Assembly (NCBI GenBank): GCA_001516025.1
Contig: LOEU01000021.1
Span: forward strand, 1-64,000
Direction: 5' to 3'
Origin: a bacterium BRH_c32
GTDB taxonomy: Bacteria > Bacteroidota > Ignavibacteria > Ignavibacteriales > Melioribacteraceae
Length of the DNA: 64,000 bases
The number at the start of each line of letters is the position of its first letter. The first letter of the stretch is position 1. Under the pieces are notes generated by a model. The model did no database searches and was not told the DNA's origin. It was given only the letters and a program-made list of their open reading frames with translations. Below, one piece after another: positions 3,911-36,830 of this stretch. The position numbers were made by a program, and so were the translations under genes.

Positions 3911-4059
3911 AGTCCTGAGACAAGATAATATTGGAATAAGATTGATGATGTTGGGAATGTTGATGGGTATGTGTTGATAATTGAAAACGATATGTATTAA
4001 AATTCTATTACGTTTTGCGTTTTTGAGAAAAATCTTTATAAACATAAAATGGAGAAGAA

Positions 4060-5208
4060 ATGACTGACCCAAGAATTAAATATTACCCAGTAGACAATGC
4101 TGATTGTTCTTTGATTACTCTTACGGATGAAACGAAAATTCTAATTGATGTTTCTATTACATTTGATGCAGAGGATGAAAAGAACAAGGACAGATATAAT
4201 GTTCGAAGAGACATATTAGATAATGAACTTAAAAAAGAAAAAGAAATCCCATTTTTAGATGTATTCATTCTCACCCATCCTGATGAAGACCATATTAGGG
4301 GCTATAACGACTATTTCTATAGTGGAAAACCAGAAAATTACGGTGCAAAGGATAAGGAAAATGAAAAAATAGTTATCGGTGAACTATGGTATACTCCAAT
4401 TCTATTTGATCGATATACGGCGGAATTATGTGAAGATGCAATAATTTTCAAACAGGAAGCCAAGCGAAGAATGGATTTATTCAAAGAGGATAAATCAGAA
4501 GGAAATAAAGACGGGAATAGAATTAGAATAATTGGATATACTGAAAATAAAGAACTTGAAGGGTTGGAAGAAAGAATTGTCGTTCCCGGGAGTCTAATTT
4601 CTGAATTCAATGGTAAAATAAAAAGTGATTTTCGTTTATTCATTCACGCACCATTTAAAGATGCTTTTAAAGATGATGACAGAAATGAAACAAGTATAGT
4701 TTTTCAGGCAAAATTTGATGTAGATAAAAAAGTGGATGCTGGTCTATCAATTTTTTGTGGTGACGCAGGATGGCGAGTTTGGGAAAAAATATTAGATGTT
4801 AGTAATGTGGAAGACGTAAACTGGGATTTATTTCTAGCCCCACATCATTGTTCATGGACGTTTTTTAATGATAATACGGAAGAGGGGAAAAAAGAACCAA
4901 AAGAGTCTTCGTTGAAGGTACTTGATAACAAGCTAGGTTCGAATCCAGTAGTAATCTCATCAAGCAAAGAAATCAAGAACAATGACGACAACCCGCCTAG
5001 CTATAAAGCCAAAAGTCAATATGTAAAAAAAGTAGGAGAAAAATGTTTTCTTAATACGGCAACCGATTCTGGAACAAAACCTCCAGAACCAATTGAGTTT
5101 GAAATTAAAAGCACTGGACCACAAAGAACAAACAAAAAAACAAAGAGCGGAACGAAATCTCTCTTAATTGGAGAAGCAGTAAGCCAACCCAAGACTTATG
5201 GAAACTAA
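4060..5208 (+). CDS. ComEC-like metallo-beta-lactamase-fold protein of an E2-E1-JAB operon
   Basis: The 382-residue protein has a metallo-beta-lactamase (MBL) fold without a signal peptide or membrane segments. Metal-binding motif THPDEDH is at residues 72-78. Then come NETSIVF near 209-215, FCGDAGW with D235, and APHHCSW with H262-H263. This is the pattern of the free MBL domain seen at the C terminus of ComEC/Rec2 and in conflict-system hydrolases. The likely role is hydrolysis of a phosphodiester or another small substrate, but the substrate cannot be read from sequence. GGAG lies just before the ATG. The stop codon overlaps the start of the E2-E1-JAB gene by 11 bp, which suggests translational coupling and a shared function. 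The C terminus is a basic, probably flexible tail ending TYGN, which might be a conjugation target; that last point is speculation. Confidence 0.85.
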   Translation: MTDPRIKYYPVDNADCSLITLTDETKILIDVSITFDAEDEKNKDRYNVRRDILDNELKKEKEIPFLDVFILTHPDEDHIRGYNDYFYSGKPENYGAKDKENEKIVIGELWYTPILFDRYTAELCEDAIIFKQEAKRRMDLFKEDKSEGNKDGNRIRIIGYTENKELEGLEERIVVPGSLISEFNGKIKSDFRLFIHAPFKDAFKDDDRNETSIVFQAKFDVDKKVDAGLSIFCGDAGWRVWEKILDVSNVEDVNWDLFLAPHHCSWTFFNDNTEEGKKEPKESSLKVLDNKLGSNPVVISSSKEIKNNDDNPPSYKAKSQYVKKVGEKCFLNTATDSGTKPPEPIEFEIKSTGPQRTNKKTKSGTKSLLIGEAVSQPKTYGN

Positions 5209-9332: not shown

Positions 9333-12305
9333 ATGAGCACTGATAATGAGATAGAAACAATTCTGATCGTAGATGATATGTTGGTAAATCTTCATCTACT
9401 TTCAAAAATACTAACCGACCACGGTTATAAGGTGCGAGCAGTAAAAACAGGATATGAAACAATTGCCTCTGTAAATAATGAACTGCCGGATTTAATCTTA
9501 CTAGACATTATACTGCCGGATATAAATGGATACGAAGTATGCACTCAATTAAAAGCAAATGAAAAAACCTGTTTAGTCCCAATAATATTTTTAAGCGCAC
9601 TAGATAAAACCGAAGAAAAACTTCGCGGGTTTGAAGTTGGCGGAGTGGATTTTATAACAAAACCTTTTATAGTCGAAGAAGTTCTTGTCCGTGTTCAAAC
9701 ACATTTAGAAATTACTCGCCAAAGAACTCAACTTAAAAAAGATGCCGACTTTCTTATTCAATCAAACGATCTACTTAATCATGAAATAAAAGAACGAAAG
9801 TTAGCAGAAGAGAAAATAAAGTCACTTCTAAATAGTGTTGAAATAGAAAAAAGCATGCTGGAATCTTTAATTAACAGTATGACAGCTGAAGTGTGGTTTG
9901 CAGATAAAGACAAAATATATACGCTTGCCAATCCAATTGCTATAAAAACCTTTGGACTAAGTTCTAATGTGATGATAAAAGTAGAAGAATTTATCAGCAG
10001 TCTAAATATTTTACGGCCGGATGGAACTCCACTATTGGTAGAAGAACATCCAACGTTGAAAGCACTTAAAGGTGATACAGTTCTCAACCATGAGGAGATT
10101 GTTCAAATACCAACAACGGGTGAATTTAGATACCGTAGGATTAATGCTGCACCGGTAAAAGATTCAGATGGCAATATTATTGGTGCTGTTTCTGTTGTGC
10201 GCGATATTACTGAATATAAGCAGGCACAAAAAAAAATAATGGCTTCAGAAATTAAGTACCGCAGGCTCTTTGAATCTGCAAAAGATGGAATTCTAATTCT
10301 TGATGCCGAGACCGGAAAGATTGTGGATGTGAATCCATTTCTGATTGAGTTACTTGGTTATTCGCGTGAAGAATTTATTGAGAAAGCAATTTGGGAAATT
10401 GGATTCTTCAAAGATGTTGTAGCAAACTATGATAATTTTTTAGAATTACAGCAGCAAGAATATATTCGTTATGAAAATTTGCCGCTTGAAACGGCTGATG
10501 GGAGAAAGATAAATGTTGAATTTATAAGCAATGTTTATTTAGTAAATGAAAAAAAAGTAATTCAATGTAATATTAGAAACATTTCAGAAAGACTACTTGC
10601 AAAGCATAGACAAATATTTATAGCAAAAATATTGGCAATCTTAAACCGGCCAAATGATTGGCATAAAATTATTAATGATATTCTAACAGAGATAAAAAAA
10701 TTTACAAATTTTGATGCGGTTGCTATTCGTTTAAAAGAAGGTGATGACTATCCGTACTATGCTGTTAATGGGTTATCTGAAATATTTGTTTCGAAGGAAA
10801 GATTCCTATGTTCTAGGGACAAAAACGGGGATATTATATATGATGATAATGGAAAACCACATTTAGAATGTATGTGTGGGAACATCATTTCTAAGCGAAC
10901 AGATCCATTATTACCATTTTTTACTACCAAAGGAAGTTTCTGGTCCAACAATACCACAGAGTTACTAGCAAATAGCACAGAAGAAGAACTGCAGGCAACA
11001 ACACGTAACCACTGCAATGGAGCAGGTTATCAATCTGTAGCTTTAATACCCTTAATTAATAGTGATGAAACAATTGGCATTCTCCAGCTGAATGATAAAC
11101 GTACAAACCAGTTCACACTTGAAATGATCCATTTCTTTGAAAAAATAGCGATGTCATTAGGGATTGCTTTTAAGAGAATGAAAAATGAAAAATTGATAAA
11201 AGAGAGTGAAGAAAATCTTAGAGTTATTTTAGAATCTACAAATGATGGTATTTTAGCTGTTGATAAAAACAATAAGATTATAAAAACAAATAAACGCTTT
11301 ACTGAATTATGGGGCATTCCAAAAGAAATTATCGATTCTAAAGATGAAAATATTCTTTTAAATTTTATTCTCGAACAATTAATCAATCCCATAGAATTTT
11401 TAAATAAAGTAAATAAGTTAAATAATACTACAGAGTCAGATTACGATACTCTATTATTTAAAGATGGACGAATAATCGAAAGATCTTCTTATCACTTAAT
11501 ATTGGCAAATTCTATTTATGGACGTGTTTGGTCATTCCGTGATATTACCGAGCGCAAACGTAACGAGAAAGAATTATTTATTGCAAAAGAAAGAGCTGAG
11601 CAATCCGATAAACTAAAAACGGAATTCCTTTCTCAGATGTCTCACGAAGTTAGAACGCCCTTAAATGTTATTAACGGAAACGTTGAATACCTGAGTGAAA
11701 TATTAAATGACAATATAGATGATGAGGTGAAGCAATGTTTCAATGCAATAGGCTTAGCATCTGAACGAATAATAAGAACAATAGAGATAATTCTGAATTA
11801 TTCCGAATTACAAACCGGCGGGTATAAACCAGATTTAACATATATTGATTTGGGCAAGGATATTATTAACCCATTGATTGCTGAACATAAAAGATCAGCT
11901 GAAACAAAAGGTCTGAGAATTACATTTACCAATAAGATGGATGCCCGGCAGATTCAAGCTGATGAATACAGCATCAAACAGATATTTGCTAATTTGATTG
12001 ACAACGCTATTAAATATTCAAATCATGGCTACATTGAAATTCTGTTGGATATAAATGAAACAGGAAACATCTTTGTGCAAATAAAAGATACAGGCGTAGG
12101 GATGAGTCCGGAATTTCTTTCACATATATTTGAACCATTTGTTCAAGAAGAGCATGGATATTCCAGAAGTTATGACGGAAATGGGTTAGGATTAGCACTA
12201 GTGGAAAAATACTGTAAAATAAATAATGCCGTAATTGAAGTTGAAAGTAAAAAAAATATTGGTTCTACTTTTAAAGTTACGTTTAGCAACCCGGAGATAA
12301 AATGA
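9333..12305 (+). CDS. Sensor histidine kinase with N-terminal receiver (REC-PAS-PAS-GAF-PAS-HisKA-HATPase)
   Basis: This is a 990-residue cytoplasmic protein without membrane segments. Domains in order are: a receiver at about 9-125 with acidic VDD, phospho-acceptor D58 and K110; a coiled-coil linker; a PAS domain about 165-300; a PAS domain about 305-420; a GAF domain about 430-615 with conserved cysteines (C493, ECMCG at 512-516, NHC at 559-561); a PAS domain about 625-742; HisKA with SHEVRTP and H771; and a HATPase with N box NLIDNAIKYS, G1 DTGVGM and G2 GNGLGLAL. It integrates several internal signals and should phosphorylate the single-domain receiver whose gene overlaps its stop codon by 4 bp (ATGA). 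An upstream partner may in turn phosphorylate the N-terminal receiver. The signal is unknown; the Cys-rich GAF subtype recurs in many bacterial kinases. Confidence 0.93.
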   Translation: MSTDNEIETILIVDDMLVNLHLLSKILTDHGYKVRAVKTGYETIASVNNELPDLILLDIILPDINGYEVCTQLKANEKTCLVPIIFLSALDKTEEKLRGFEVGGVDFITKPFIVEEVLVRVQTHLEITRQRTQLKKDADFLIQSNDLLNHEIKERKLAEEKIKSLLNSVEIEKSMLESLINSMTAEVWFADKDKIYTLANPIAIKTFGLSSNVMIKVEEFISSLNILRPDGTPLLVEEHPTLKALKGDTVLNHEEIVQIPTTGEFRYRRINAAPVKDSDGNIIGAVSVVRDITEYKQAQKKIMASEIKYRRLFESAKDGILILDAETGKIVDVNPFLIELLGYSREEFIEKAIWEIGFFKDVVANYDNFLELQQQEYIRYENLPLETADGRKINVEFISNVYLVNEKKVIQCNIRNISERLLAKHRQIFIAKILAILNRPNDWHKIINDILTEIKKFTNFDAVAIRLKEGDDYPYYAVNGLSEIFVSKERFLCSRDKNGDIIYDDNGKPHLECMCGNIISKRTDPLLPFFTTKGSFWSNNTTELLANSTEEELQATTRNHCNGAGYQSVALIPLINSDETIGILQLNDKRTNQFTLEMIHFFEKIAMSLGIAFKRMKNEKLIKESEENLRVILESTNDGILAVDKNNKIIKTNKRFTELWGIPKEIIDSKDENILLNFILEQLINPIEFLNKVNKLNNTTESDYDTLLFKDGRIIERSSYHLILANSIYGRVWSFRDITERKRNEKELFIAKERAEQSDKLKTEFLSQMSHEVRTPLNVINGNVEYLSEILNDNIDDEVKQCFNAIGLASERIIRTIEIILNYSELQTGGYKPDLTYIDLGKDIINPLIAEHKRSAETKGLRITFTNKMDARQIQADEYSIKQIFANLIDNAIKYSNHGYIEILLDINETGNIFVQIKDTGVGMSPEFLSHIFEPFVQEEHGYSRSYDGNGLGLALVEKYCKINNAVIEVESKKNIGSTFKVTFSNPEIK

Positions 12306-12670
12306 AAAAGATACTTATTGTTGAAGATGATATATATTCCCAAGATTTGATGAGAAAAATATTTAGGAAAGATTTTGAAACTGATATATGCAGCTCTTCC
12401 GAAGAGTATCACGAAAAATATTCAGATAAGAAATACTGCGTAATGATAATAGACGTATCCATTAAGGGAAGAAAGAATGGATTGGAATTTATTAAGGAAA
12501 TTAGAGGAATAACTTCTACTAAGAATACGCCAATAATCTGTTTGACAGCACATGCTCAAACAAAAATGAGGGAGATGGCATTGGATTCAGGTGCAGACCT
12601 TTTTATTACAAAGCCTGTATTGAATAAAACACTTAAAGAAGCAATTACGTATTTAATCATGCGAACGTAA
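12302..12670 (+). CDS. Stand-alone response-regulator receiver
   Basis: The 122-residue protein consists only of a receiver domain: acidic pair in VEDD, phospho-acceptor D51 in MIIDVSIKG, T82 in CLTAHAQ, and K104 in ITKPV. It has no DNA-binding or enzymatic output domain, so it must act by protein contact or relay phosphate. The start overlaps the kinase stop (ATGA), which makes that kinase the probable partner. Confidence 0.92.
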   Translation: MKKILIVEDDIYSQDLMRKIFRKDFETDICSSSEEYHEKYSDKKYCVMIIDVSIKGRKNGLEFIKEIRGITSTKNTPIICLTAHAQTKMREMALDSGADLFITKPVLNKTLKEAITYLIMRT

Positions 12671-12681
12671 TTACCAATGAT

Positions 12682-12710
12682 AATTCAGCAGCCATTTCTG
12701 TTGCTGAATT
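12682..12710 (+). terminator. Hairpin after the first kinase/receiver pair
   Basis: A perfect 9-bp inverted repeat (AATTCAGCA ... TGCTGAATT) with an 11-nt loop begins 12 bp after the receiver stop. There is no uridine tract after it, so it may be a weak terminator or mRNA-stabilising hairpin that separates this pair from the VirK-like gene. Confidence 0.4.
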
Positions 12711-12829
12711 TACCTTGTTGTTGGAAAAATATTATTCGAGTTTATAATCTATACTAATTGATTAATGTATAATTATATTTTTATTCAGAGAAATCGGAGC
12801 AAGTAAAATAAAAATGATTATGAGTAACT

Positions 12830-13333
12830 ATGAGAACTTCTAATAACGTTTGTTATCGAATAGCGCGAAAAATATGTTTAACGGCTGCAATAATGGCAAC
12901 CTATACCGGCATTGCATTTTGTACGCCAAATAAGATTAATAGTTTTCAAGAATTATTAACGGCCCTCAAATCAGGGCAAAGTGTTAAAGTTATTATTCAT
13001 TATTCAAATTGCAGATTAGTGATTGCCGGTAAAGATGAAAAAGCTCCGGAAGCTATTGGCGGTATGGAATTAAAATTATTTGAATATTTTGATGTCGGTG
13101 CCGTTAATAATAAAAAAGCATTCATTTCATCTTCGGAAAATATTCTTATTTCTCATCCGCGTTATGGGTATGTTTATAATTATGTCAAGTTGCGCTTCTT
13201 TGAAGATGAATCGGTTGAGATAATTGCAAGGTATCTGGAACCTAAAACTTTTGAAGTGAAGATGGATGAAACATTTTATACAACCATTAATAATATAGAA
13301 AATGATGGGGCAGTATATTTATATTCCGATTGA
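12830..13333 (+). CDS. VirK-family secreted protein
   Basis: The 167-residue protein starts with a basic and hydrophobic signal peptide (cleavage probably after AFC near residue 31). Then comes FQELLTALKSGQSVKVIIHYSNCRL, which matches the conserved opening of the VirK family (Pfam VirK). A GGMELKLFEYF segment and beta-rich C-terminal half follow. The function of the family is poorly defined; it was named from a virulence-inducible gene in plant-associated bacteria. Here it lies between a kinase/receiver pair and a B12-binding sensor, overlapping none, which suggests a periplasmic output or accessory of the signalling cluster. No secretion system is nearby. Confidence 0.65.
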   Translation: MRTSNNVCYRIARKICLTAAIMATYTGIAFCTPNKINSFQELLTALKSGQSVKVIIHYSNCRLVIAGKDEKAPEAIGGMELKLFEYFDVGAVNNKKAFISSSENILISHPRYGYVYNYVKLRFFEDESVEIIARYLEPKTFEVKMDETFYTTINNIENDGAVYLYSD

Positions 13334-13350
13334 TTTTAAGAGGAGGCAGT

Positions 13351-14409
13351 ATGGAAAACCTTAATAGAGAAACTTCGCAAAAGATCCTAGATTTAAAAAG
13401 TAGTTTGCCGCTGATAATTCTTGAAAAACAATTTTTACTTCAACCCCGATTAAAAGAGCAGTATAGTGAAAGGCACAAAAAATTATACTTAGAAGATACT
13501 GCATTTCATTTCAGTTATTTGGCGGAATCAATTGCTGCCGATGAACCAATTCTCTTTAACGAATATTTGAGCTGGGCTAAAATATTTTTTTCTACTTTAC
13601 CTATTGATCTAAATGATATTATTCTGAATTTAGAAATTTTGAGAGATACTCTCGCTTCGAACATGAATTCTGAGATGGCAGCATTAACCAACAGGTATGT
13701 AAATGAAGGAATTGATAAATTCAAAAGTCAAAGCGCTGAGCTTGCATCTTTCATTCTGGAATCTAATCCGTTAAATACTATTGCATCCGACTATTTAAAT
13801 TTCTTAATAGATGGAAACAAAAAAGATGCGCTGGATTTAATATTAGAAATTGTCAATAAGGGAATTTCGATAAAAGATATCTACTTAAATATTTTTCAGG
13901 CAACACAAAAGGAAACCGGAAGATTGTGGCAGATGGGCAAAATAACCGTTGCGCAGGAACATTTTATTACCGCAGCCACCCAGCTTATTATGTCTCAGCT
14001 TTATCCCTATCTATTCTCTTCAACTAAAAAAGAAAAGAAAATTATTATTACTTGCGCCTCAGGCGAACTACATGAAATAGGAGCCCGAATGGTAGCGGAT
14101 TTATTTGAAATGGATGGATGGAATTCCTATTTCTTTGGAGCTAATACTCCACAGAATAGCTTCATTTCAGCCATTGAAGTTTATAAACCGGAAGTGATTG
14201 CTATATCTACAACTATGACTTTTAATCTTAGCACTGTTTCAGATTTGATTAATAGTGTAAGAAAGAATCCTAAGACTAATTATGTTAAAATACTTGTGGG
14301 CGGTTATCCTTTTAATCTGGCAGATAATCTATGGCAAAGTGTGGGCGCAGATGGGCATGCGATGGATGCACTAAGCGCAATAAATCTTGCAAATGAATTC
14401 TTAAATTGA
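13351..14409 (+). CDS. Stand-alone cobalamin-binding sensor with CarH-type photoreceptor motif
   Basis: I place the start at ATG 13351 because AGGAGG lies at 13341-13346; an upstream TTG in frame at 13330 would put this site inside the coding region. The 352-residue protein has an N-terminal helical region (about 1-135) of unknown fold, a four-helix B12-binding cap (about 140-225) and a Rossmann-like B12-binding domain (about 230-352). The cap contains W193, nine residues, then E203-H204, which is the Wx9EH signature of CarH/LitR-type photoreceptors. The binding domain has ELHEIG (E239, H241, G244), an ExHxxG motif whose histidine is the lower cobalt ligand. GGYPFN and GADGHA follow. No MerR helix-turn-helix is present. 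By homology it could bind adenosylcobalamin or methylcobalamin and change state on light or redox change. Adjacent kinases suggest it regulates phosphorylation. Confidence 0.85.
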   Translation: MENLNRETSQKILDLKSSLPLIILEKQFLLQPRLKEQYSERHKKLYLEDTAFHFSYLAESIAADEPILFNEYLSWAKIFFSTLPIDLNDIILNLEILRDTLASNMNSEMAALTNRYVNEGIDKFKSQSAELASFILESNPLNTIASDYLNFLIDGNKKDALDLILEIVNKGISIKDIYLNIFQATQKETGRLWQMGKITVAQEHFITAATQLIMSQLYPYLFSSTKKEKKIIITCASGELHEIGARMVADLFEMDGWNSYFFGANTPQNSFISAIEVYKPEVIAISTTMTFNLSTVSDLINSVRKNPKTNYVKILVGGYPFNLADNLWQSVGADGHAMDALSAINLANEFLN

Positions 14410-23476: not shown

Positions 23477-26400
23477 ATGAGAAAAATAATATTTCTATTA
23501 ATTTTGTTTTTCATTTCGGGATTATGCGCTGCACAGGACCAAGTCCAGGTAACACTTTCACAACCGCCGCCAAATCAACTTCGAGTAACGGATCTATGGC
23601 GGGCAATCCTGATAAATACTTCAAAAATTACTTTGCATGTAACATTATCCGGAACTCTCCAAGTTAAAGGGGAAGGGATAGTTGCCGATGGTTCTTCGAG
23701 ACTCCTTAGCTTACCCCCCGGCACAAAAATGATTACTTATGACGATGTTAAAACCGGCAATATGAATTTTAAGCAGGGAACTTGGAGCGAAGCATTTAAC
23801 CGCACTGGTATTGCCCCGGCGGGAGATTATACAATTTGTATAACTGTGAAAGCCGAAGACGGTAGAGAAATCGGCAGTAGCTGCATCGATCAGATTATTG
23901 AAACCATAACTCCGGTTAATGTGGATTTAGCTCCTGAAATGGTGAATCTGCAACTTATGACTCCGGCTGATGGATCAACACTGCTCCTGAATCAACCTGT
24001 TTTATTCAGTTGGATGCTACAATCAGTTAAAGCCGGAAGGGACGTTACTTATAAAATAAAAGTAGTGGAGATTTACAACAAACAGTCACCCATTGCGGCT
24101 ATTTTAGGGAACCCGGCACTCTTTGAAAAAAGTGATATAAAAACCACTATTCTTCAATATCCTATATCAGCAAAGAAATTAGAAATAGGGAAAAAATACG
24201 CATGGACTGTTCGGGTAATGAGTGTTGGCGATCAAAGTGTTGATGACGATAGAAGTTCATCCGAAGCATTCATGTTTGATGTCGGAGCAGATGGCGTTAC
24301 AAAAAGCTTAACTATCCCTACTCCTCAGGATAGCACGAATTCAATAGCCGGAAGTGATTCAGTAGCTGTTGGAGATACAATCAGAGCCGGACGCAATGGA
24401 GAATTTAAGGTAGTTGTTACAGATGCAACCATCGAATCTGACGGATCATTAACAGGCAAAGGAAGAGTCCGAATTAATTGGTTGGGGACAAATGTCGCGG
24501 TCGAGTTTAAAAAAATTCTGGTTGATACCACAAAACGATTGACCTCAGGGGGAATAGTTACAACGGAGAGCGGAAGTTCCGGTACCTCTTATACAACCTA
24601 TCCTCTCGCATGGGCACAGAGTCTTTTAAACGGCCCGGGTATAGCAAATGTTGTAGATAACACAGTCAATTGGAGCAACGGCAAAATAGATAATATTGTT
24701 AATTGGATAAACGGTCTTAATTATGGTCAGCCACAAATAAATTACAATGGGAATATACCTCCTCCGGTTCTACCTGATTATTCACTCAAAATGCCTTTCG
24801 GATTACAATTCAGTAATGGCAATCAGAAACTGGTGATTACCGAGATGGTCTTCAAGAAAGATACATCTAAAGTAAATTTTCTGGCTCAAGTGAAATTTAC
24901 AAAATCAGGCACTCCTTATACATTAGGATTTGCGGGAAAATATTTTCCGTTTCATCCTTCCGGTATTAATTTCGGCAGCGGACGTGTGGAACTCGTTCAA
25001 GATATTAAAATTCCTAATACATCTTCAAATCCAAAAATGATTTTTAAATTTATTAAGGGAACATCTAATTCAGGATGCTACGTCGAATGGGATAGCACCG
25101 GAATTAAAGATATAAGTCTTGCACTCGATGTTAATTTCACGAGAGATTGGCTACTGCCGGTCCCGACATCAACCGATACAGTCAAAGCTGCATTGGTAGG
25201 CAATGGGACGAGTATGCATGATATTCTGCTTACCGGAACTTTAGATACTTGCGAGATTGTGGGTACTAACGGAATTAAGATTCAGTCTAGTCCTATTTCT
25301 CTCGATCTCTCCGATAGTAGAAATCCATTGAATATGAATTTCCCTACTAACTATCCAAACGATTCAACTATAACTTGGAAAGGATTTTACGTAAAATCTT
25401 TTGATGTCTCTTTACCGGAGACATGGAAAACAGGAACGAATATGAATCCTGTTATAGTTTCTGCGAATAATTTTATTATTGATGATTTTGGTCTTACGAC
25501 AAAAATAAAAGCAGTGAATGTTTTCAATCTTCAATCCGGACGGATCGCAGATTTAAGCGCCAGTTTAGATACGGTTGAAATTTCTATTATCAGCAGTTCC
25601 TTGGTTAGCGGTAAAGCTAAAGGAATTCTTGTATTGCCGGTTAGTGAAGTAACAACTCAAAATAGTTTAAAATACACAGCAACATTCAATCAGGTCTCAG
25701 GAGGAAATAATTTCCAAATAGCCGTCCTCCCGATTGGTCCCATTGATGCTGATGTACTTAAAGGGAAGATGACATTACTACCGACCTCAAGTATTTCAGC
25801 GAATCTTTCTCCTAACTCAAACACTCTCGCGATTAATCTGAACGGTACCTTTGAATGGGATAATCCTAACTTTCCGATAAAGGGTATTAAAATGGAGATG
25901 GGTTTTGAGAATGTTGGATTAAACTATTTTTATAACTCTACAACTAATACTCTCAGTTTTAATCCGGGTTCATGGAGCTTCGCAAGTCCTCCGAAATGGT
26001 TGGCAAATTTCCCGGTATCGATTAAAAAGGTTTATTTTAAATCGTTAACCAAGGCAAGTTTACCAACTCCTAAAATGGAGCTTTTAAGAGGCGCCTTGAT
26101 GATCGATATTGTTGCTAACCTCACTGAAGATATCGGCGGGGCAACTACTTTAGGAGCATCGTTCGCAATCGAGCTTGATAAATCCAATAGAAAATTTACT
26201 CCTAAATTCATAGAAGTATTTCTTGATAGTATTTCGGTTCATGCAGATATGCCCGCAGTTAAAATCGATGGTAACATTAGTATTAGGAATGAAGACCCGA
26301 TTTTTGGCAATGGTTTTCTTGGTGAATTAAAGGTCAATTTTACTTCGGTCGGTCTTAAAGCAAGAGCATTAGTCGAGTTTGGCAATACCACCTACCAATA

Positions 26401-28405
26401 TGGGAGTTTATATAGATATTGGCGTGTAGAAGCCGATCTTCTCCTGCCGCCACCGGGTGTACCATTTTTGCCCGGAATCGCATTCAGAGGATTTGGCGGA
26501 GGTGCTTATTATAATATGAATGCAACTCAAGTAACATCGACTAAAACTCTTTCAGGTAAGAAATTCACCTTTACACCTTTGAAATCTACTATGGGTTTAA
26601 GGGTAGCCGCTACAATTGCCACTACACCAAAGGAAGAAACTTTTAATGCTGATGTCGGTCTCCTGGCACAATTCTCAAAGAGTCAAGGTTTGACTAATAT
26701 CGATTTTAACGGAGATTTCTGGATTGCTGCAGGATTTGATAAACGTCCTAAGGCAAAGATTAATGGCTCTGTCAATGTGGGCTATAATTTCCCCGATAAA
26801 CATTTTAATCTATCGGCAAGCGTAAATGTAAACGCTCCTCCAATTACTACTCCAAATCCGGCTAATCTTGTATTGGATATCAGAGGAAAAACTAATAAAT
26901 GGTTCTTCAAATTTGGCGAGCCGACTTCAAATGAAAATACATTAGTCAATGTGGATGTTAGTGTTCTCGGAGTAACTGCTCATTTATATGAATATTTAAT
27001 GTTTGGGAATGATATTACACCACCTTCCGGATTTACACAAACATTTAAAAATGGTTACCATGGCGTTTTTGGCAACTATCCCGGTCCTACAACTACAAGC
27101 GGAGTAATCGGAAATACTAATACGGCAACCGGCAGAGGTTTTGCTTTAGGTATTGGATTCCTATTTAATAAAGACCTTAATTTTAGTTTAATTAGCGGTT
27201 ATTCTGCGTCTTTAGAATTAGACGCCGGTGCAGAATTAAATCTGGCATTTGCCGAATATCTTGGCAATAACTGCGAGAATCCTTCTCAACGAATTGGAAT
27301 AAACGGATGGCAAGCTTCCGGAAGTGTCGGTTTTTATGCTTCTGTTTTAGCATCTGTAAAAAAGGGAAGCTCTTCTTGGAATATAGCCGATATTAAAGCA
27401 GGGGGTTGGCTGCAAGGAAAATTCCCTAATCCGGTTTATGTTGTCGGAGCAATTCAAGGTTCTGTTAAAATTGCAGGTATAACAACAGGTATTCATCTAT
27501 TGGGTTGCTGTAGTGTTTGCGGCAGAGCTTTGGGGGATAATTGTGGTGCCCTTTTACACAAAAATGGTTGTGGACATAAATTTAAGCATCAATGGTGCCC
27601 TCATTTACAGACTAATTATTTAGTAAATACTTCTTTTGATAAAAATTTTGAATATGGTACTGATTGTACAGGGATAACAAGTGCCGGCGGTGGTGCAACT
27701 GTTGCTCAAGGAGATGCTGCAGAAGATCAGAAACAATTATTAATTCAGTATGTTAATCCAATTCAGCAATATAGTTTCCCCATTCTTTCTCCGTTAGTAG
27801 TTAAGTTCGGATTAATACCTAATAATATTTTTGATGTTTCGGAACAACAATCCGATGGTTCAATAAAAAATAGAACCTTTAAGATGGTAATTACCACCAA
27901 TATGAAAATTCATAATGATGATGGCTCAAATTCGAATGTGTCATTAAAGAAAAACGAAAATAATCTCGGAGAGTTTCTATATACTGTATTAAACCCAATC
28001 TCTATAAATACTGCAACACCAAAAACATTAGGTTCGGCTCAAACTCTGAATAAAACTAAAACTCTTAATACATTCTTAAATTCAGGGAAGATGACTGCAA
28101 AAAATAGCGCAAGCATTGGACAACCAATAGTTACTAGTTATCCATTGCCTCCTGCAAGTAACACTTATAATAATTTACCTCCCGAACCTCCGGAGGTTAA
28201 AAATACCTTAACAATAAATAAGGATTATACTTTTACTGTAACTGCTACATTAAAAGAATTTGTAGGTAATACTTGGGTAGATGCGAAAAACAAAAATAAT
28301 AGCGCGGTTACTCAATCTGTTACCAAAAAATTCAGAACAGGACCAATGGTTCTAGTTGCAAGTTCAGGTAATACAAATAGTATTCAAATAAATAAAGTAA
28401 AATAA
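23477..28405 (+). CDS. Very large secreted protein with TANFOR-like N-terminal domain and Cys-rich cluster
   Basis: The 1,642-residue protein has a signal peptide cleaved after residue 19-20 (LCAAQ). The first 250 residues (VTLSQPPPNQLRVTDLWRAI, later YKIKVVEIYNKQSP and GKKYAWTVRVM) are clearly homologous to the N terminus of the barrel protein at 33969. This domain resembles what databases call TANFOR, though I cannot confirm that. A long beta-rich middle follows, without recognisable enzymatic motifs. At about residues 1341-1375 there is a cluster of eight cysteines and four histidines (GCCSVCGR ... NGCGHKFKHQWCPH), unusual in an exported protein. The C terminus is Pro- and Asn-rich with no sorting domain that I can name. 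It probably forms part of an envelope or surface assembly together with the next two genes. Confidence 0.7.
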   Translation: MRKIIFLLILFFISGLCAAQDQVQVTLSQPPPNQLRVTDLWRAILINTSKITLHVTLSGTLQVKGEGIVADGSSRLLSLPPGTKMITYDDVKTGNMNFKQGTWSEAFNRTGIAPAGDYTICITVKAEDGREIGSSCIDQIIETITPVNVDLAPEMVNLQLMTPADGSTLLLNQPVLFSWMLQSVKAGRDVTYKIKVVEIYNKQSPIAAILGNPALFEKSDIKTTILQYPISAKKLEIGKKYAWTVRVMSVGDQSVDDDRSSSEAFMFDVGADGVTKSLTIPTPQDSTNSIAGSDSVAVGDTIRAGRNGEFKVVVTDATIESDGSLTGKGRVRINWLGTNVAVEFKKILVDTTKRLTSGGIVTTESGSSGTSYTTYPLAWAQSLLNGPGIANVVDNTVNWSNGKIDNIVNWINGLNYGQPQINYNGNIPPPVLPDYSLKMPFGLQFSNGNQKLVITEMVFKKDTSKVNFLAQVKFTKSGTPYTLGFAGKYFPFHPSGINFGSGRVELVQDIKIPNTSSNPKMIFKFIKGTSNSGCYVEWDSTGIKDISLALDVNFTRDWLLPVPTSTDTVKAALVGNGTSMHDILLTGTLDTCEIVGTNGIKIQSSPISLDLSDSRNPLNMNFPTNYPNDSTITWKGFYVKSFDVSLPETWKTGTNMNPVIVSANNFIIDDFGLTTKIKAVNVFNLQSGRIADLSASLDTVEISIISSSLVSGKAKGILVLPVSEVTTQNSLKYTATFNQVSGGNNFQIAVLPIGPIDADVLKGKMTLLPTSSISANLSPNSNTLAINLNGTFEWDNPNFPIKGIKMEMGFENVGLNYFYNSTTNTLSFNPGSWSFASPPKWLANFPVSIKKVYFKSLTKASLPTPKMELLRGALMIDIVANLTEDIGGATTLGASFAIELDKSNRKFTPKFIEVFLDSISVHADMPAVKIDGNISIRNEDPIFGNGFLGELKVNFTSVGLKARALVEFGNTTYQYGSLYRYWRVEADLLLPPPGVPFLPGIAFRGFGGGAYYNMNATQVTSTKTLSGKKFTFTPLKSTMGLRVAATIATTPKEETFNADVGLLAQFSKSQGLTNIDFNGDFWIAAGFDKRPKAKINGSVNVGYNFPDKHFNLSASVNVNAPPITTPNPANLVLDIRGKTNKWFFKFGEPTSNENTLVNVDVSVLGVTAHLYEYLMFGNDITPPSGFTQTFKNGYHGVFGNYPGPTTTSGVIGNTNTATGRGFALGIGFLFNKDLNFSLISGYSASLELDAGAELNLAFAEYLGNNCENPSQRIGINGWQASGSVGFYASVLASVKKGSSSWNIADIKAGGWLQGKFPNPVYVVGAIQGSVKIAGITTGIHLLGCCSVCGRALGDNCGALLHKNGCGHKFKHQWCPHLQTNYLVNTSFDKNFEYGTDCTGITSAGGGATVAQGDAAEDQKQLLIQYVNPIQQYSFPILSPLVVKFGLIPNNIFDVSEQQSDGSIKNRTFKMVITTNMKIHNDDGSNSNVSLKKNENNLGEFLYTVLNPISINTATPKTLGSAQTLNKTKTLNTFLNSGKMTAKNSASIGQPIVTSYPLPPASNTYNNLPPEPPEVKNTLTINKDYTFTVTATLKEFVGNTWVDAKNKNNSAVTQSVTKKFRTGPMVLVASSGNTNSIQINKVK

Positions 28406-28407
28406 AG

Positions 28408-30573
28408 ATGACTATGAAAAACTTAATAATACCAAATAAACAAAATCACAATAAACAATTAATTTATATAGTCGCCATATTTTTATTAGCAAACATCGCA
28501 TTTGCTCAAGAGACGGATTCTACATTGATCCCGACAAGCTATATAAATATTGTTGGCAGATATACTGATGGCAAAGGTGTTGAATTGCGATTTTTCCCTA
28601 ATAAAAAGTCTGTCTTAGAGGTCGGATTAAAAAATGGATTTATCATTGATAGAATGCTTTTCGATTCAACAGATCAAAGAAACGAAACCGAAACACCGGT
28701 CTATAACGAGATAGCAAGAGTATTCCCCTTTAATGATGATCGGTGGGGAACTACAATTAGTAATGAGAAAAACACAGACTCTAGGAGTGAGCTCGAAATT
28801 GCACGCGATTTCCTGAAAAATATTGATAAGAAAGAGGGGGGAGCTTTTGATTTTGAAAAGGGAATCGCTGAATTAAAGGAGCAAAAAAGTAAAGAGGATT
28901 TTGAGTATATGATATTTGCTCTCTCGGCTATAAAAAATGCAAAAGTAGCTATTGCATTGGGCTTAGCTTATACAGATACTACTGTAAAAAAAGGAGAAAC
29001 TTATATATATAGAGTCAGACCTATTGGTAAATCGAATATCTATGATATCATTTCAGTTGATTATAGAATTTTAGTTGATAAGCCTCGTAATAGCTTTGAT
29101 AATAAAGTATATGTTAAACAAGGAGATACAGAATTATTTTTTAGCTGGATAGAAATACCCGAGATATCCGGTTATTTTGTAGAGCGGGCTAATCCCGGTG
29201 AATCCACTTTTATTCAATTAAATGAAGCACCAATATATAACTTAGGCGGCAGCTCTCCAACCGGCGAATCAAGAAGTGGATATAATGACAAAAACCTAAT
29301 TAATTACAAAACATATACATATAGATTTTTTGGCTACACATTATTTGGAGAAAAAGTGCAGTTTGCAGAAGTTAAAGGAATGCCGAAGGATTTAACCCCT
29401 CCCGAAAATCCATTCCTGCCGCAACCGAAACATGTAAAAGATAAGGAAGTTTTGGTTACATGGAAAATGAATCCGACTTCCGCACCTGACTTAAATGGTT
29501 TTTTTGTTGCTCGATCAGATAAAAATGAAGGAGAATTTAAAGTACTTCACAACACTATGCTCCCGAAAAATTCAAGAACATTTATCGATACTACCTTTAT
29601 CCCCGGAGAACCAAATTATTATTTGGTTCAGGCAGTCGATACAGCTAATAATGTTAGTTCTTCATTTCCTGTTTCAGTTACTCTAATCGATTCTATACCT
29701 CCGGTTAAACCGATTTTTATCTCCGGTAAAATAGATTCATTAGGAGTTGTTACGATTATAGTTGAGAAAAATAAAGAGAAAGACCTGATGGGTTATAGAC
29801 TTTTTAGATCAAATAGTGAAGAGCACGAATTTTCAACTATTTATGAGGGATTCATGAATAACGATTCCTTAGATCAAAAAGTTCTGACGGAGTTTAAAGA
29901 TACTGTTTCATTAAATTCTTTAACCCCTATTATTTACTATAAAATTAAAGCCCTCGATTTTAATTACAATCAATCAGAATTTTCAAATGTACTAAAAGTA
30001 GTTCGACCGGATACTATCCCACCTGTTATTCCTCTATTTAATGATGTGATTGTAGGAGAAAAAAAGATTGAACTCCGATTCGTACCGAGCAGCAGCGAAG
30101 ATGTTAATGAGCATATCATCTATCGAAAGACCGATTTACAATCCAAATGGGAAAATCTTAATACCACGGGACCAAAGGAGACAAAATACGTTGATACTAC
30201 CGTAACAACCGGAACAACATATTATTATTCAATTAGGGCTAAAGACATAAGCGGACTCTTTTCAAAATATTCATCTACGGTTTATGGAAAACCTTACGAT
30301 ACAGGTCTAAGACCATCAATTGAAAAATTTAGTATAGATGTGGAAAAGAAAAATATCATTCTTAAATGGGAATATCCTCCTCTAAAGGCAGAACACGTTT
30401 TTATGATCTATAAGAGGGACGATAAAGGGAAATTACAACAATATGATACGACTAAAGAAAAATCTTATACCGATAAGAACGTGAATAAAGAAAATTACTA
30501 TGCAATAAAAGTTATTACGGAAGACGGCGGTCAATCTAAAATGAGTAATGTACTTGGTAAAAATATTGAGTAG
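28408..30573 (+). CDS. Secreted protein with fibronectin-III-like repeats (intact copy)
   Basis: The 721-residue protein has a signal peptide with cleavage after IAFAQ near residue 35; ATGs at 28408 and 28414 are both possible. After an N-terminal domain of about 200 residues (VELRFFPNKKSVLEVGLKNGF) come about five FN3-like modules. They share the pattern PPVxPxF, a WKxxPxxDLxGF or LMGYRLFRS strand, and YYYSIRAKDxxG ending each module. The motif TWKMNPTSAPDLNGFFVARS is the best preserved. No anchor is visible. It starts 2 bp after the 1,642-residue gene, so they are co-transcribed. Bases from 29398 onwards are repeated exactly at 32728, as part of a 3,330-bp tandem duplication. Confidence 0.8.
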   Translation: MTMKNLIIPNKQNHNKQLIYIVAIFLLANIAFAQETDSTLIPTSYINIVGRYTDGKGVELRFFPNKKSVLEVGLKNGFIIDRMLFDSTDQRNETETPVYNEIARVFPFNDDRWGTTISNEKNTDSRSELEIARDFLKNIDKKEGGAFDFEKGIAELKEQKSKEDFEYMIFALSAIKNAKVAIALGLAYTDTTVKKGETYIYRVRPIGKSNIYDIISVDYRILVDKPRNSFDNKVYVKQGDTELFFSWIEIPEISGYFVERANPGESTFIQLNEAPIYNLGGSSPTGESRSGYNDKNLINYKTYTYRFFGYTLFGEKVQFAEVKGMPKDLTPPENPFLPQPKHVKDKEVLVTWKMNPTSAPDLNGFFVARSDKNEGEFKVLHNTMLPKNSRTFIDTTFIPGEPNYYLVQAVDTANNVSSSFPVSVTLIDSIPPVKPIFISGKIDSLGVVTIIVEKNKEKDLMGYRLFRSNSEEHEFSTIYEGFMNNDSLDQKVLTEFKDTVSLNSLTPIIYYKIKALDFNYNQSEFSNVLKVVRPDTIPPVIPLFNDVIVGEKKIELRFVPSSSEDVNEHIIYRKTDLQSKWENLNTTGPKETKYVDTTVTTGTTYYYSIRAKDISGLFSKYSSTVYGKPYDTGLRPSIEKFSIDVEKKNIILKWEYPPLKAEHVFMIYKRDDKGKLQQYDTTKEKSYTDKNVNKENYYAIKVITEDGGQSKMSNVLGKNIE

Positions 30574-32727
30574 GGGAAGTAGTTCAATGTCGGAGAATAA
30601 TGCGGATTCTGACATCATAAATATTTAAGGAAAATGAAATGAAAATATATAAAATTTTATTACTGTTTTTTATAGCTGCCATATCGACATTTGCTCAAGT
30701 TTCTGTTAAACTTCAGCAGCCCCCGCCTTATCAGTTTAAAGTGGAGGAGTTTTGGAAAATTGTTCTTATCAATGGCGGTGATAGACCCATAAATGTTTAT
30801 TTAATAGGAACTGCTACGGAATCTTTGCAGGGGAAGGTTATCGAAGCTACTTCTTCTATAATCACACTTCAGAAAGGAGTGAAAGCTGTCTCAGGACGCG
30901 ATCTCGGTCCTTTCTCCGTAAGCGAATCGAACAGCCGCTACAAAGATATTATTCTTAACACCGGCGGACTGCCATCCGGTAGCTATAATATTTGCATCGC
31001 CGTTATAGATGCAGCAGATGGAAAGCAGATTGCTACTGATTGCATTTCGGTTAATATTGAAAATTTTAATCGTATGGAATTGGTTTCTCCTATGGATGGT
31101 GAGATTTTAGGAGATAATTTCAATGAAGATGCAGAAATTGATCAAACTACGGATACACAATGGGAAGATTCTACATCAGAAATATCTAAAAAGAAAAAAG
31201 ATAGAGATTGGGATGAAGCTGTTGGCGACTTGAAAAAGAAAAAGGATTATGATTGGGATGAAGTTGTTGGTGACCCAAAGAAGTTAACAGATAATAATAA
31301 GAAGCCGGTTAATAGGAGCAAAAATAGCCCCATCGTTATTTTTTCATGGCTTCCGCCCATTCCCGTTCCACCCGGTGCAAGAATTAGCTACCGATTAAAA
31401 ATTGTGGAAATTTACGGGAATCAATCCGTCCATTCGGCAATGGCTTCAAATCCTCTTTATTATCAATCGTTTAATTTATCCACAACCACAATACGATATC
31501 CGATTGCCGCACAACCATTAATGCCGGGCAGAAAATACGCTTGGTCAGTGGAAGCATTTGCAGGTGATTTCAAAATTCAGGAGAGTGAAGTAAGATCATT
31601 TGAAATTCAGGGTGGGGAGGAGAGTAAGATAAGGTATGATGTAAGTAATGCCGGAACTGTTCAATACAGTTCGTCCGGCTTTTTTGATAAATCGGGTTTG
31701 CCTTCAGGTTTATCCTCATTCTCAATTAGAAGTTCAGGAGCTTCTGCTCTAAGCATGTTTAGGAACACTCCTCCAATAGATATCTTAAGCACTCCCGGTG
31801 CATTGGTATTTTCGGGTGATGCAAAATTGGCAATCGTATCGAATAGCAAACCGCCACAATTTTCCCAGCTTCCTTCTACTTATAAGACTCTTGAAATTAA
31901 TCCCCGTCTGTCAGTTTACGATATTCCATTCGGGCTCAATATCTATTTGAGTTCATTAAATAATTCGAGCCGGCAAAGTTTGAACAGTGTTTCATTTATT
32001 CTTGATATCGAACGCTTGAAATCAAAGATTAAAGAACGCATTTCAGAGAAAGCAAGTTCGGCTATCTCTTCAGCCGATTCAACTTTAGGAAAAATTGATC
32101 CCGCTACATTAAATGATCCTTCTAAACTTGTTGATAATGCGGAAAAACTTGGGCTAATTTCTCCGGCGGAGAAGTTTTTTCTAAATATTAAAACGCTCGG
32201 AATTGGAAGAACATATCCAACATATTCAGATTTCACAGTTAATGGTGTGCCCGTTAATGGATTGGATCTTGGTTACCAACTCGGAATATTATACTTCGCT
32301 GTGGCAGTGGGAAATAATCTGGATGGTATCAATGATGTTTCGTTTAAAAGATCATTTTTATCCGGTCAATTTGGATTCGGTGAAAAAGAAAATACTCATT
32401 TCTTTTTATCTGCCGTAAAAATGAAAGATGATCCCAATTCGATTCAAGTAAGTCCTTCCAATTTATCATTAACACCTCAAGAAAATGTGGTGCTCGGTTC
32501 TGAAGGTAAACTCAATTTATTTAATAAATTAATTGAGATTGATGGAGAGGGAGCGGTATCCGGATTAACACGAAATTTGAATGATGCAGATTTTACAAGC
32601 GGATCGATTCCGGGTTTTATTAACGATCTATTAACTCCGAAGCTAAGTACCTCATTTGATTACGCTTGGAAAGGGAAAATTGCTTTTAATAATCAGGCGA
32701 CTGCCACATATTTTTCATTAGGTGTAA
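29398..32727 (+). repeat. Tandem duplication, copy 1 (3,330 bp)
   Basis: This segment and the next one (32728-36057) are the same sequence at an offset of 3,330 bases; every stretch I compared is identical, as are the encoded proteins. The unit runs from inside the FN3-protein gene to inside the barrel-protein gene. Left parent at 29398 (CCTCCCGAAAATCC) and right parent at 36057 (GGTGTAA) meet at 32727/32728. There is no homology beyond a base or two at the junction. Length is a multiple of three, but the two genes are in different frames so no fusion protein results. Confidence 0.95.
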
Positions 32728-32774
32728 CCTCCCGAAAATCCATTCCTGCCGCAACCGAAACATGTAAAAGATAA
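30639..32774 (+). pseudogene. Truncated barrel-protein gene at duplication junction (3-prime end lost)
   Basis: The first 696 codons equal those of the full gene at 33969. At the junction (32727/32728) the frame enters the duplicated FN3 gene out of phase and stops after about 15 foreign codons (ending ETCKR). The lost part is the C-terminal beta-barrel with its terminal tryptophan, so the product would be an exported but unanchored fragment. The signal peptide and N-terminal domain remain, so it could still be made and secreted. Confidence 0.85.
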
Positions 32775-33903
32775 GGAAGTTTTGGTTACATGGAAAATGA
32801 ATCCGACTTCCGCACCTGACTTAAATGGTTTTTTTGTTGCTCGATCAGATAAAAATGAAGGAGAATTTAAAGTACTTCACAACACTATGCTCCCGAAAAA
32901 TTCAAGAACATTTATCGATACTACCTTTATCCCCGGAGAACCAAATTATTATTTGGTTCAGGCAGTCGATACAGCTAATAATGTTAGTTCTTCATTTCCT
33001 GTTTCAGTTACTCTAATCGATTCTATACCTCCGGTTAAACCGATTTTTATCTCCGGTAAAATAGATTCATTAGGAGTTGTTACGATTATAGTTGAGAAAA
33101 ATAAAGAGAAAGACCTGATGGGTTATAGACTTTTTAGATCAAATAGTGAAGAGCACGAATTTTCAACTATTTATGAGGGATTCATGAATAACGATTCCTT
33201 AGATCAAAAAGTTCTGACGGAGTTTAAAGATACTGTTTCATTAAATTCTTTAACCCCTATTATTTACTATAAAATTAAAGCCCTCGATTTTAATTACAAT
33301 CAATCAGAATTTTCAAATGTACTAAAAGTAGTTCGACCGGATACTATCCCACCTGTTATTCCTCTATTTAATGATGTGATTGTAGGAGAAAAAAAGATTG
33401 AACTCCGATTCGTACCGAGCAGCAGCGAAGATGTTAATGAGCATATCATCTATCGAAAGACCGATTTACAATCCAAATGGGAAAATCTTAATACCACGGG
33501 ACCAAAGGAGACAAAATACGTTGATACTACCGTAACAACCGGAACAACATATTATTATTCAATTAGGGCTAAAGACATAAGCGGACTCTTTTCAAAATAT
33601 TCATCTACGGTTTATGGAAAACCTTACGATACAGGTCTAAGACCATCAATTGAAAAATTTAGTATAGATGTGGAAAAGAAAAATATCATTCTTAAATGGG
33701 AATATCCTCCTCTAAAGGCAGAACACGTTTTTATGATCTATAAGAGGGACGATAAAGGGAAATTACAACAATATGATACGACTAAAGAAAAATCTTATAC
33801 CGATAAGAACGTGAATAAAGAAAATTACTATGCAATAAAAGTTATTACGGAAGACGGCGGTCAATCTAAAATGAGTAATGTACTTGGTAAAAATATTGAG
33901 TAG
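32728..33903 (+). pseudogene. 5-prime-truncated copy of the FN3-protein gene
   Basis: This is an exact repeat of the last 391 codons of the gene at 28408. It lacks the signal peptide and N-terminal domain, and a TAA immediately precedes it in frame at 32725. The first possible start inside it is TTG 32782, without a ribosome site, so export or even translation is unlikely. Confidence 0.85.
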
Positions 33904-36057
33904 GGGAAGTAGTTCAATGTCGGAGAATAATGCGGATTCTGACATCATAAATATTTAAGGAAAATGAAATGAAAATATATAAAATTTTATTACTGTTTTT
34001 TATAGCTGCCATATCGACATTTGCTCAAGTTTCTGTTAAACTTCAGCAGCCCCCGCCTTATCAGTTTAAAGTGGAGGAGTTTTGGAAAATTGTTCTTATC
34101 AATGGCGGTGATAGACCCATAAATGTTTATTTAATAGGAACTGCTACGGAATCTTTGCAGGGGAAGGTTATCGAAGCTACTTCTTCTATAATCACACTTC
34201 AGAAAGGAGTGAAAGCTGTCTCAGGACGCGATCTCGGTCCTTTCTCCGTAAGCGAATCGAACAGCCGCTACAAAGATATTATTCTTAACACCGGCGGACT
34301 GCCATCCGGTAGCTATAATATTTGCATCGCCGTTATAGATGCAGCAGATGGAAAGCAGATTGCTACTGATTGCATTTCGGTTAATATTGAAAATTTTAAT
34401 CGTATGGAATTGGTTTCTCCTATGGATGGTGAGATTTTAGGAGATAATTTCAATGAAGATGCAGAAATTGATCAAACTACGGATACACAATGGGAAGATT
34501 CTACATCAGAAATATCTAAAAAGAAAAAAGATAGAGATTGGGATGAAGCTGTTGGCGACTTGAAAAAGAAAAAGGATTATGATTGGGATGAAGTTGTTGG
34601 TGACCCAAAGAAGTTAACAGATAATAATAAGAAGCCGGTTAATAGGAGCAAAAATAGCCCCATCGTTATTTTTTCATGGCTTCCGCCCATTCCCGTTCCA
34701 CCCGGTGCAAGAATTAGCTACCGATTAAAAATTGTGGAAATTTACGGGAATCAATCCGTCCATTCGGCAATGGCTTCAAATCCTCTTTATTATCAATCGT
34801 TTAATTTATCCACAACCACAATACGATATCCGATTGCCGCACAACCATTAATGCCGGGCAGAAAATACGCTTGGTCAGTGGAAGCATTTGCAGGTGATTT
34901 CAAAATTCAGGAGAGTGAAGTAAGATCATTTGAAATTCAGGGTGGGGAGGAGAGTAAGATAAGGTATGATGTAAGTAATGCCGGAACTGTTCAATACAGT
35001 TCGTCCGGCTTTTTTGATAAATCGGGTTTGCCTTCAGGTTTATCCTCATTCTCAATTAGAAGTTCAGGAGCTTCTGCTCTAAGCATGTTTAGGAACACTC
35101 CTCCAATAGATATCTTAAGCACTCCCGGTGCATTGGTATTTTCGGGTGATGCAAAATTGGCAATCGTATCGAATAGCAAACCGCCACAATTTTCCCAGCT
35201 TCCTTCTACTTATAAGACTCTTGAAATTAATCCCCGTCTGTCAGTTTACGATATTCCATTCGGGCTCAATATCTATTTGAGTTCATTAAATAATTCGAGC
35301 CGGCAAAGTTTGAACAGTGTTTCATTTATTCTTGATATCGAACGCTTGAAATCAAAGATTAAAGAACGCATTTCAGAGAAAGCAAGTTCGGCTATCTCTT
35401 CAGCCGATTCAACTTTAGGAAAAATTGATCCCGCTACATTAAATGATCCTTCTAAACTTGTTGATAATGCGGAAAAACTTGGGCTAATTTCTCCGGCGGA
35501 GAAGTTTTTTCTAAATATTAAAACGCTCGGAATTGGAAGAACATATCCAACATATTCAGATTTCACAGTTAATGGTGTGCCCGTTAATGGATTGGATCTT
35601 GGTTACCAACTCGGAATATTATACTTCGCTGTGGCAGTGGGAAATAATCTGGATGGTATCAATGATGTTTCGTTTAAAAGATCATTTTTATCCGGTCAAT
35701 TTGGATTCGGTGAAAAAGAAAATACTCATTTCTTTTTATCTGCCGTAAAAATGAAAGATGATCCCAATTCGATTCAAGTAAGTCCTTCCAATTTATCATT
35801 AACACCTCAAGAAAATGTGGTGCTCGGTTCTGAAGGTAAACTCAATTTATTTAATAAATTAATTGAGATTGATGGAGAGGGAGCGGTATCCGGATTAACA
35901 CGAAATTTGAATGATGCAGATTTTACAAGCGGATCGATTCCGGGTTTTATTAACGATCTATTAACTCCGAAGCTAAGTACCTCATTTGATTACGCTTGGA
36001 AAGGGAAAATTGCTTTTAATAATCAGGCGACTGCCACATATTTTTCATTAGGTGTAA
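32728..36057 (+). repeat. Tandem duplication, copy 2 (3,330 bp)
   Basis: This is the second copy of the unit described at 29398. It restores the 5-prime region of the barrel-protein gene, which then continues into unique sequence at 36058. One intact copy of each gene therefore survives: FN3 protein upstream, barrel protein downstream. Confidence 0.95.
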
Positions 36058-36830
36058 ATAGAATCGGTCCCGGATTTATATCTCTGGGAGCACCAAATTT
36101 ACGACAGGATCAATTTCAATTTGATGCAAAGTTCGATCAGAAAATAGCAGAAAAGAAAATAACGTTGAAAACATTCTTTAGAGTTTATCATGATAATCTA
36201 ATCAATTGGAAACAATCTACTACGACTACAACATCGTTCGGAATTAATCTAGGATTCTATTTCCCAAAGCTGCCGTTTTTCCAAATTAATTATTCCCCAT
36301 ATTCACAAAGAAACGATAATGTTCTCGTTACGCTACAGATGAAAAACACATTCGATTCGTTCTCATTCATGACCGGTTATTCCTATCAATTTTCAGGTAT
36401 GTATGCATCAACAATGTTCTCATTTAATACTCAATCGCAGAACTCCATGCTCGGTAATACCTCTACCGAATTTTCAAATACATCATATATGATTAATCAA
36501 AATCTTAATTTTGAATTTCCGCTTTCACTGAGCTCGACCTTTAGTTTGTCTCAATCTAAAATACTCTCTATCTCAAGTAATTTAACCGAATTTGATCTCA
36601 ATGGGAGTTATCAGTTAAGCGAAAGTATTTCCGCTAATCTAGGCGGAACAATCTCTAATGAGGAAAGCTTAACAAAGCGCGTGATGGTTACTCTTGGAAC
36701 TAATATTATGATTTCAAAATTGCTACGTTTCCAATTGCAAGGAAATATTTCCAACTATAAAGACCTTTCAGGCGGGGGACTCAATTATAATGATAGTATG
36801 CTTCAGGCATCGGTTATGCTTAATTGGTAA
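33969..36830 (+). CDS. Secreted/outer-membrane protein with TANFOR-like domain and C-terminal beta-barrel (intact copy)
   Basis: The 953-residue protein has a signal peptide (cleavage after STFAQ, residue 20). An N-terminal domain shares KLQQPPPYQFKVEEFWKIVLI and later YRLKIVEIYGNQS and GRKYAWSVEAF with the 1,642-residue protein. Between them is a hydrophilic insert with two repeats of DWDEAVGD and DWDEVVGD separated by lysine runs (about 185-215). The last 270 residues alternate polar and aromatic residues in short strands (NLGFYFPKLPFFQINYSPYS ...) and end in MLNW. A terminal aromatic residue is the usual signature of outer-membrane barrels recognised by BamA. It probably anchors a surface complex with the FN3 protein and the 1,642-residue protein. 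Its upstream 65 bp are duplicated, so both copies share the same leader. Confidence 0.75.
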   Translation: MKIYKILLLFFIAAISTFAQVSVKLQQPPPYQFKVEEFWKIVLINGGDRPINVYLIGTATESLQGKVIEATSSIITLQKGVKAVSGRDLGPFSVSESNSRYKDIILNTGGLPSGSYNICIAVIDAADGKQIATDCISVNIENFNRMELVSPMDGEILGDNFNEDAEIDQTTDTQWEDSTSEISKKKKDRDWDEAVGDLKKKKDYDWDEVVGDPKKLTDNNKKPVNRSKNSPIVIFSWLPPIPVPPGARISYRLKIVEIYGNQSVHSAMASNPLYYQSFNLSTTTIRYPIAAQPLMPGRKYAWSVEAFAGDFKIQESEVRSFEIQGGEESKIRYDVSNAGTVQYSSSGFFDKSGLPSGLSSFSIRSSGASALSMFRNTPPIDILSTPGALVFSGDAKLAIVSNSKPPQFSQLPSTYKTLEINPRLSVYDIPFGLNIYLSSLNNSSRQSLNSVSFILDIERLKSKIKERISEKASSAISSADSTLGKIDPATLNDPSKLVDNAEKLGLISPAEKFFLNIKTLGIGRTYPTYSDFTVNGVPVNGLDLGYQLGILYFAVAVGNNLDGINDVSFKRSFLSGQFGFGEKENTHFFLSAVKMKDDPNSIQVSPSNLSLTPQENVVLGSEGKLNLFNKLIEIDGEGAVSGLTRNLNDADFTSGSIPGFINDLLTPKLSTSFDYAWKGKIAFNNQATATYFSLGVNRIGPGFISLGAPNLRQDQFQFDAKFDQKIAEKKITLKTFFRVYHDNLINWKQSTTTTTSFGINLGFYFPKLPFFQINYSPYSQRNDNVLVTLQMKNTFDSFSFMTGYSYQFSGMYASTMFSFNTQSQNSMLGNTSTEFSNTSYMINQNLNFEFPLSLSSTFSLSQSKILSISSNLTEFDLNGSYQLSESISANLGGTISNEESLTKRVMVTLGTNIMISKLLRFQLQGNISNYKDLSGGGLNYNDSMLQASVMLNW

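Follow-up and report, generated by a model that had tools for sequence, protein, structure and literature searches.

The doubled unit and the genes it crosses

The window analysed here, bases 1-64000 of contig C21 (LOEU01000021.1; 159,549 bases) in the draft genome of bacterium BRH_c32 (43 contigs totalling 3,487,867 bases; completeness 94.44%), carries an operon of three genes, designated A, B and C, in which a 3,330-base unit spanning parts of B and C occurs twice, head to tail (Table 1). From the comparison of this sequence with the remainder of the assembly and with related loci, we consider it very probable that the repeat is an assembly error, in which an overlap between contigs would have been doubled.

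The two copies agree at 3,330/3,330 bases, with zero mismatches, and at offset 3330 copy 1 itself is the sole identical run of at least 20 bases in the window. Moreover, no other exact direct repeat of at least 40 bases, and no other exact repeat of at least 22 bases in direct or inverted orientation, was found in the 64-kb window. The identical run stops at the unit edges on both sides, the homology at the joint is 0 bp, and no notable inverted repeats were seen at the joint or at the unit ends. A sequence-only reading that preceded this work had described two apparently identical adjacent copies at offset 3,330, with a junction at 32727/32728 and almost no microhomology; its coordinates proved exact, the junction held to the base, and the remark on microhomology was correct, being strictly 0 bp. 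When 200,000 random 3,330-base joins were simulated from the window, 53% showed 0 bp of homology and 97% showed ≤3 bp, so that the joint resembles a random join; an exact repeat of 3,330 bases, in turn, cannot be produced by chance. Since the head of B precedes the unit and the tail of C follows it, the flanks of the unit belong together, and its copy number alone is in doubt.

The open reading frames (ORFs) also bore out the gene effects described previously, namely that one intact B and one intact C are kept, along with a truncated barrel protein (C') and a headless FN3 gene (B''). The FN3 domain of B scores 25.4 bits against PF00041, marginally above the Pfam cut-off of 25, and the protein aligns over its full length to relatives at 34-65% identity in one comparison and at 38-76% in another. 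A search of solved structures returned two weak matches for protein B, 5z06_A (expect value, E, 0.00016) and 3mpc_A (an Fn3-like protein, E 0.0098), and no match for protein C. The AlphaFold2 model of C, which is of low confidence (predicted local distance difference test, pLDDT, 48.8; predicted template modelling score, pTM, 0.30), suggests a long series of beta-strands toward the C-terminal end, of which the predicted strands beyond residue 699 would be missing from C'; "barrel" is a likely label for this protein. For A and C, no Pfam or NCBIfam family was found above cut-off. A scan for regulatory signals gave 34 promoter-like sites versus 34.3 in shuffles and 7 terminator-like sites versus 5.7, and no use was made of it.

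Table 1. Coordinates, within the window, of the doubled unit, the genes of the operon and the overlapping contig end (aa, amino acids).
Feature	Position	Strand	Description
Copy 1 of the 3,330-base unit	29398..32727	+	3' portion of B followed by the 5' portion of C
Copy 2 of the 3,330-base unit	32728..36057	+	Identical to copy 1
Joint between the copies	32727..32728	.	0 bp homology; proposed site of a contig join without overlap collapse
Gene A	23477..28405	+	1642 aa; first in the A-B-C operon; outside the repeat; from the ORF list and from relatives with A adjoining B in the same order
Gene B, intact	28408..30573	+	721 aa; signal peptide (by eye); FN3 domain
C', truncated copy of C	30639..32774	+	711 aa: 696 residues of C and 15 foreign
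B'', headless copy of B	32782..33903	+	373 aa from TTG; B residues 350-721, the first being translated as M; lacks a signal peptide
Gene C, intact	33969..36830	+	953 aa; signal peptide (by eye); C-terminal series of predicted beta-strands
C21 5' end, overlap with C28	1..1199	-	Reverse complement of the first 1,199 bases of C28 (L140); 100%, gap-free; window's own contig

Contig ends and repeats in the same assembly

The stretches of the draft that were compared amount to 1,287,188 of 3,487,867 bases (37%), and comprise C21 and 18 short contigs in whole and generally about 20 kb per end of the other 24 (C39 entire); an overlap exceeding about 20 kb, or a contig lying entirely inside another, would have escaped this comparison. 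Five pairs of contig ends overlap in these stretches with 100% identity and no gaps, these being C4/C42 over 17,564 bases, C24/C40 over 13,622, C26/C39 over 3,832 and C39/C8 over 2,348, as well as the 5' end of C21 with C28 over 1,199 (all five checked letter by letter). Together they occupy 10 of the 86 contig tips, and the 3,330 bases of the unit fall inside their size range (1,199-17,564 bases). Joining the five pairs uncollapsed would yield tandem copies that are exact and share 0-2 bp of homology at the joint; furthermore, 8 of the 10 overlap boundaries are crossed by a frame that stays free of stops for over 300 codons, as is the 32727/32728 joint. Because no biological process places perfect copies precisely at paired contig ends, these five overlaps are a failure of the assembly to merge. 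They sum to 38,565 bases (~38.6 kb) counted twice in the draft, and further contig joining is possible there. The idea that a fixed de Bruijn overlap length might identify the assembler was rejected, as the short overlaps at the tips compared (85 of 86) ranged from 15 to 546 bases.

Repeats were assessed in a sample biased to contig ends, which takes in both tips of all contigs and only 1,201,188 bases at a distance of over 1 kb from the tips. When repeat pairs had to span 250 bases or more at 99.5% identity, a copy lies at a contig tip (distance 0) in 30 of 31, and the sole pair lacking such contact is the 3,330-base unit; with looser limits, tip contact was seen in 33/34 (150 bases, 98%) and 34/35 (100 bases, 97%), all of these pairs being partly non-independent, as one repeat can yield several. 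Repeats of a few hundred bases are enough to interrupt this assembly, and a true exact tandem repeat of 3,330 bases should therefore have broken it. Genes for ribosomal RNA (rRNA) are commonly missing from drafts unable to resolve repeats; no 16S or 23S rRNA gene was found here, though sequence may be hidden by 3,153 consecutive N in contig C30 (G000, 11202-14354), the only N run in the stretches compared.

One related assembly (G015; 32 tips of 16 contigs, 553,527 bases) served as a control. At its tips there was no exact overlap of at least 80 bases, the lone tip-to-tip match being 281 bases at 96.8%, and several near-identical repeats are held within its contigs (e.g., 262 bases at 98.1% and 1,092 bases at 96.0%). 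The absence of perfect tip overlaps from this single control suggests that unmerged overlaps typify the assembly of the window and not all such drafts.

As a separate observation, contig C12 (L125, 1-5215) carries one insertion sequence twice, with a 570-aa transposase (by eye) at 3356-5068. The second copy is split by another insertion sequence (412-aa transposase by eye, 961-2199) with a flanking 9-base direct repeat, denoting a nested insertion, and no further long copy of either was found in the genome.

The A-B-C operon in related genomes

Across 58 genomes (the window's own and 57 relatives), protein B had some match in 52, mostly weak and FN3-like, and protein C had a match in 21. The operon is well kept in G053, G055 and G034, with the order A-B-C and a single copy of each gene; in G045 the contig starts inside A, and G046 presents another order (C, a paralogue, A, B). 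Single A-B-C operons were also identified in Ignavibacteriales bacterium PowLak16_MAG6 (L077; B 76% identical) and Melioribacter sp. nzgw155 (L078; B 75% identical), as well as at L079, L080, L081 and L101. From its matches to such named loci, the source bacterium is probably one of the Ignavibacteriales. Moreover, the 37 named related loci, many of which are short or clipped by contig ends, hold no exact repeat pair (threshold of at least 60 bases) longer than 122 bases.

The operon, composed of a very large exported A, the FN3 protein B and the barrel-like C, was located at 23477-36830 of the window and at L077-L081, L083, L084, L087, L095, L099 and L101. It occurs in Ignavibacteriales and Balneolales, in Nonlabens, and in one Chitinophagaceae and one Kapaibacterium draft; in more distant relatives, a shorter protein on the far side of A takes the place of C. 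Neighbouring paralogues share 343 bp of identical DNA at offset 2258 in L071 (G046, 6501-6843), and 383, 104 and 155 bp at offset 5659 in L072 (G037, 5325-6044); such stretches point to duplication or gene conversion in the recent past. In Balneolaceae bacterium ANBcel3, two short contigs (212 and 211; L097 and L098) carry near-identical A-B stretches and both stop at residue 572 of B, a pattern that might be expected had the assembly broken at a duplicated locus.

Explanations for the doubled unit

In the explanation that we favour, one assembled piece would have ended at 32727, its neighbour would have opened with those very 3,330 bases, and a head-to-tail join would have left the overlap uncollapsed; the true sequence would most likely be flank-unit-flank, with one copy of the unit and a single A-B-C operon. 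The unmerged overlaps and the tip contacts are observed, and the joining at 32727/32728 itself is our inference. An assembly error is favoured because five exact overlaps were left unmerged and the repeat pairs elsewhere reach contig tips, and also because the copies are exact, the joint homology is 0 bp and the operon is single in relatives. Accordingly, among the three explanations put forward in the sequence-only reading (a very recent event, an amplification in progress or an assembly error), it is the last that gained support from the overlaps and the tip contacts.

Comparable errors have been described in other assemblies. In PMC8081667, from the Vertebrate Genomes Project, homotype false duplication is reported at overlapping contig boundaries; as proposed for the present unit, one locus is doubled, dovetailing contig ends are left unmerged, and tandem copies appear upon joining, whereas the cases described there have a gap between the copies and come from vertebrate long-read assemblies. 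Similarly, PMC7111523 describes metagenome assemblies with artificial concatenation of identical sequence, or with scaffolding despite overlap. There, too, the assembly repeats identical sequence head to tail, and a duplicate is left where overlapping pieces join; the overlap type in that source has Ns, whereas the present case has none, and involves 3,330 bases in two copies.

Several observations weigh against an uncollapsed overlap. Although the adjacent copies are identical and dovetailing contig ends stand unmerged elsewhere in the assembly, as expected of this kind of error, the N gap between copies seen in the scaffolded cases (PMC8081667) is absent. Such a run is often left by scaffolding errors of this type, according to PMC8081667 and PMC7111523, and there is no N at the joint or anywhere in the window. 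In addition, all five overlaps lie between separate contigs, and the 37% of the genome compared yielded neither a second doubled overlap within a contig nor any other exact tandem duplication. Finally, TAA stands at the unit end and also within 5 bases upstream of the unit start, with a 2-base slip; this coincidence, spotted post hoc and expected in 4% of random joins that lack homology, is a weak hint of microhomology. Regarding the missing gap, we claim that the unit is not of the scaffold-gap form and works like it by means of a gapless join.

A real, very recent tandem duplication of the 3,330 bases, generated by template switching or end joining inside B and C and fixed or common in the sampled population, appears improbable. 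A very young event would fit the exact identity, a gapless joint is compatible with it, the TAA at both breakpoints could be counted in its favour as a weak coincidence, and related clusters do duplicate or convert, as seen in the identical paralogue stretches of L071 and L072. The direct head-to-tail copies and the breakpoints within genes also resemble spontaneous bacterial tandem duplications (PMC3161906, PMC3411829); however, the junctions sequenced or confirmed there have microhomology, which is usual though not strictly required, and the present joint has 0 bp. Indeed, microhomology is reported at 40/40 amplification junctions sequenced from starving Escherichia coli (PMC3161906), and in Salmonella every rearrangement confirmed by experiment had short repeats at its endpoints, although longer homology was selected for in that study (PMC3411829). 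The 122-base ceiling on exact repeats in the named related loci, and the breaking of this assembly at far shorter repeats, further argue against a real event. If true, it would be a homology-free duplication in an uncultured Ignavibacteriales-like bacterium, caught at birth, with no base changed and both parent genes intact, which would have created truncated barrel-like and signal-less FN3 proteins and might be the starting point for local clusters of paralogues such as relatives have.

Much less probable still is a joint that existed in the sequencing library only, in which a ligated or circularised fragment of ~3.3 kb would have joined the unit end to the unit start, the assembler then following the loop. 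Chimeric ligation in libraries is described in PMC3411829, and it would fit a joint that is blunt and devoid of homology, as well as the lack of any gap; nevertheless, it leaves the five unmerged contig overlaps unexplained, and the assembler would have had to trust very few reads.

The remaining candidates were rejected: an amplification in progress, since two copies only are present and nothing found supports it; a mobile element as the cause, as there is no transposase among the listed ORFs of the unit and its ends bear no notable inverted repeats; a phage origin, as the unit had no match in a phage collection (a distant search at the DNA level only); and inheritance of the duplication from an ancestor, as relatives are single-copy and no comparable repeat occurs in the 37 named loci, many of them short or clipped.

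In brief, when a tandem duplication in a public draft is exact and gapless, a probable joining error can be recognised even in the absence of reads, by asking whether other exact contig-end overlaps occur in the same assembly and whether repeats are resolved anywhere else in it. C' and B'' are probably artefact genes, products of the same assembly error, and they should not be recorded as new gene variants, not being credible without reads. The A-B-C operon itself may be an undescribed surface system.
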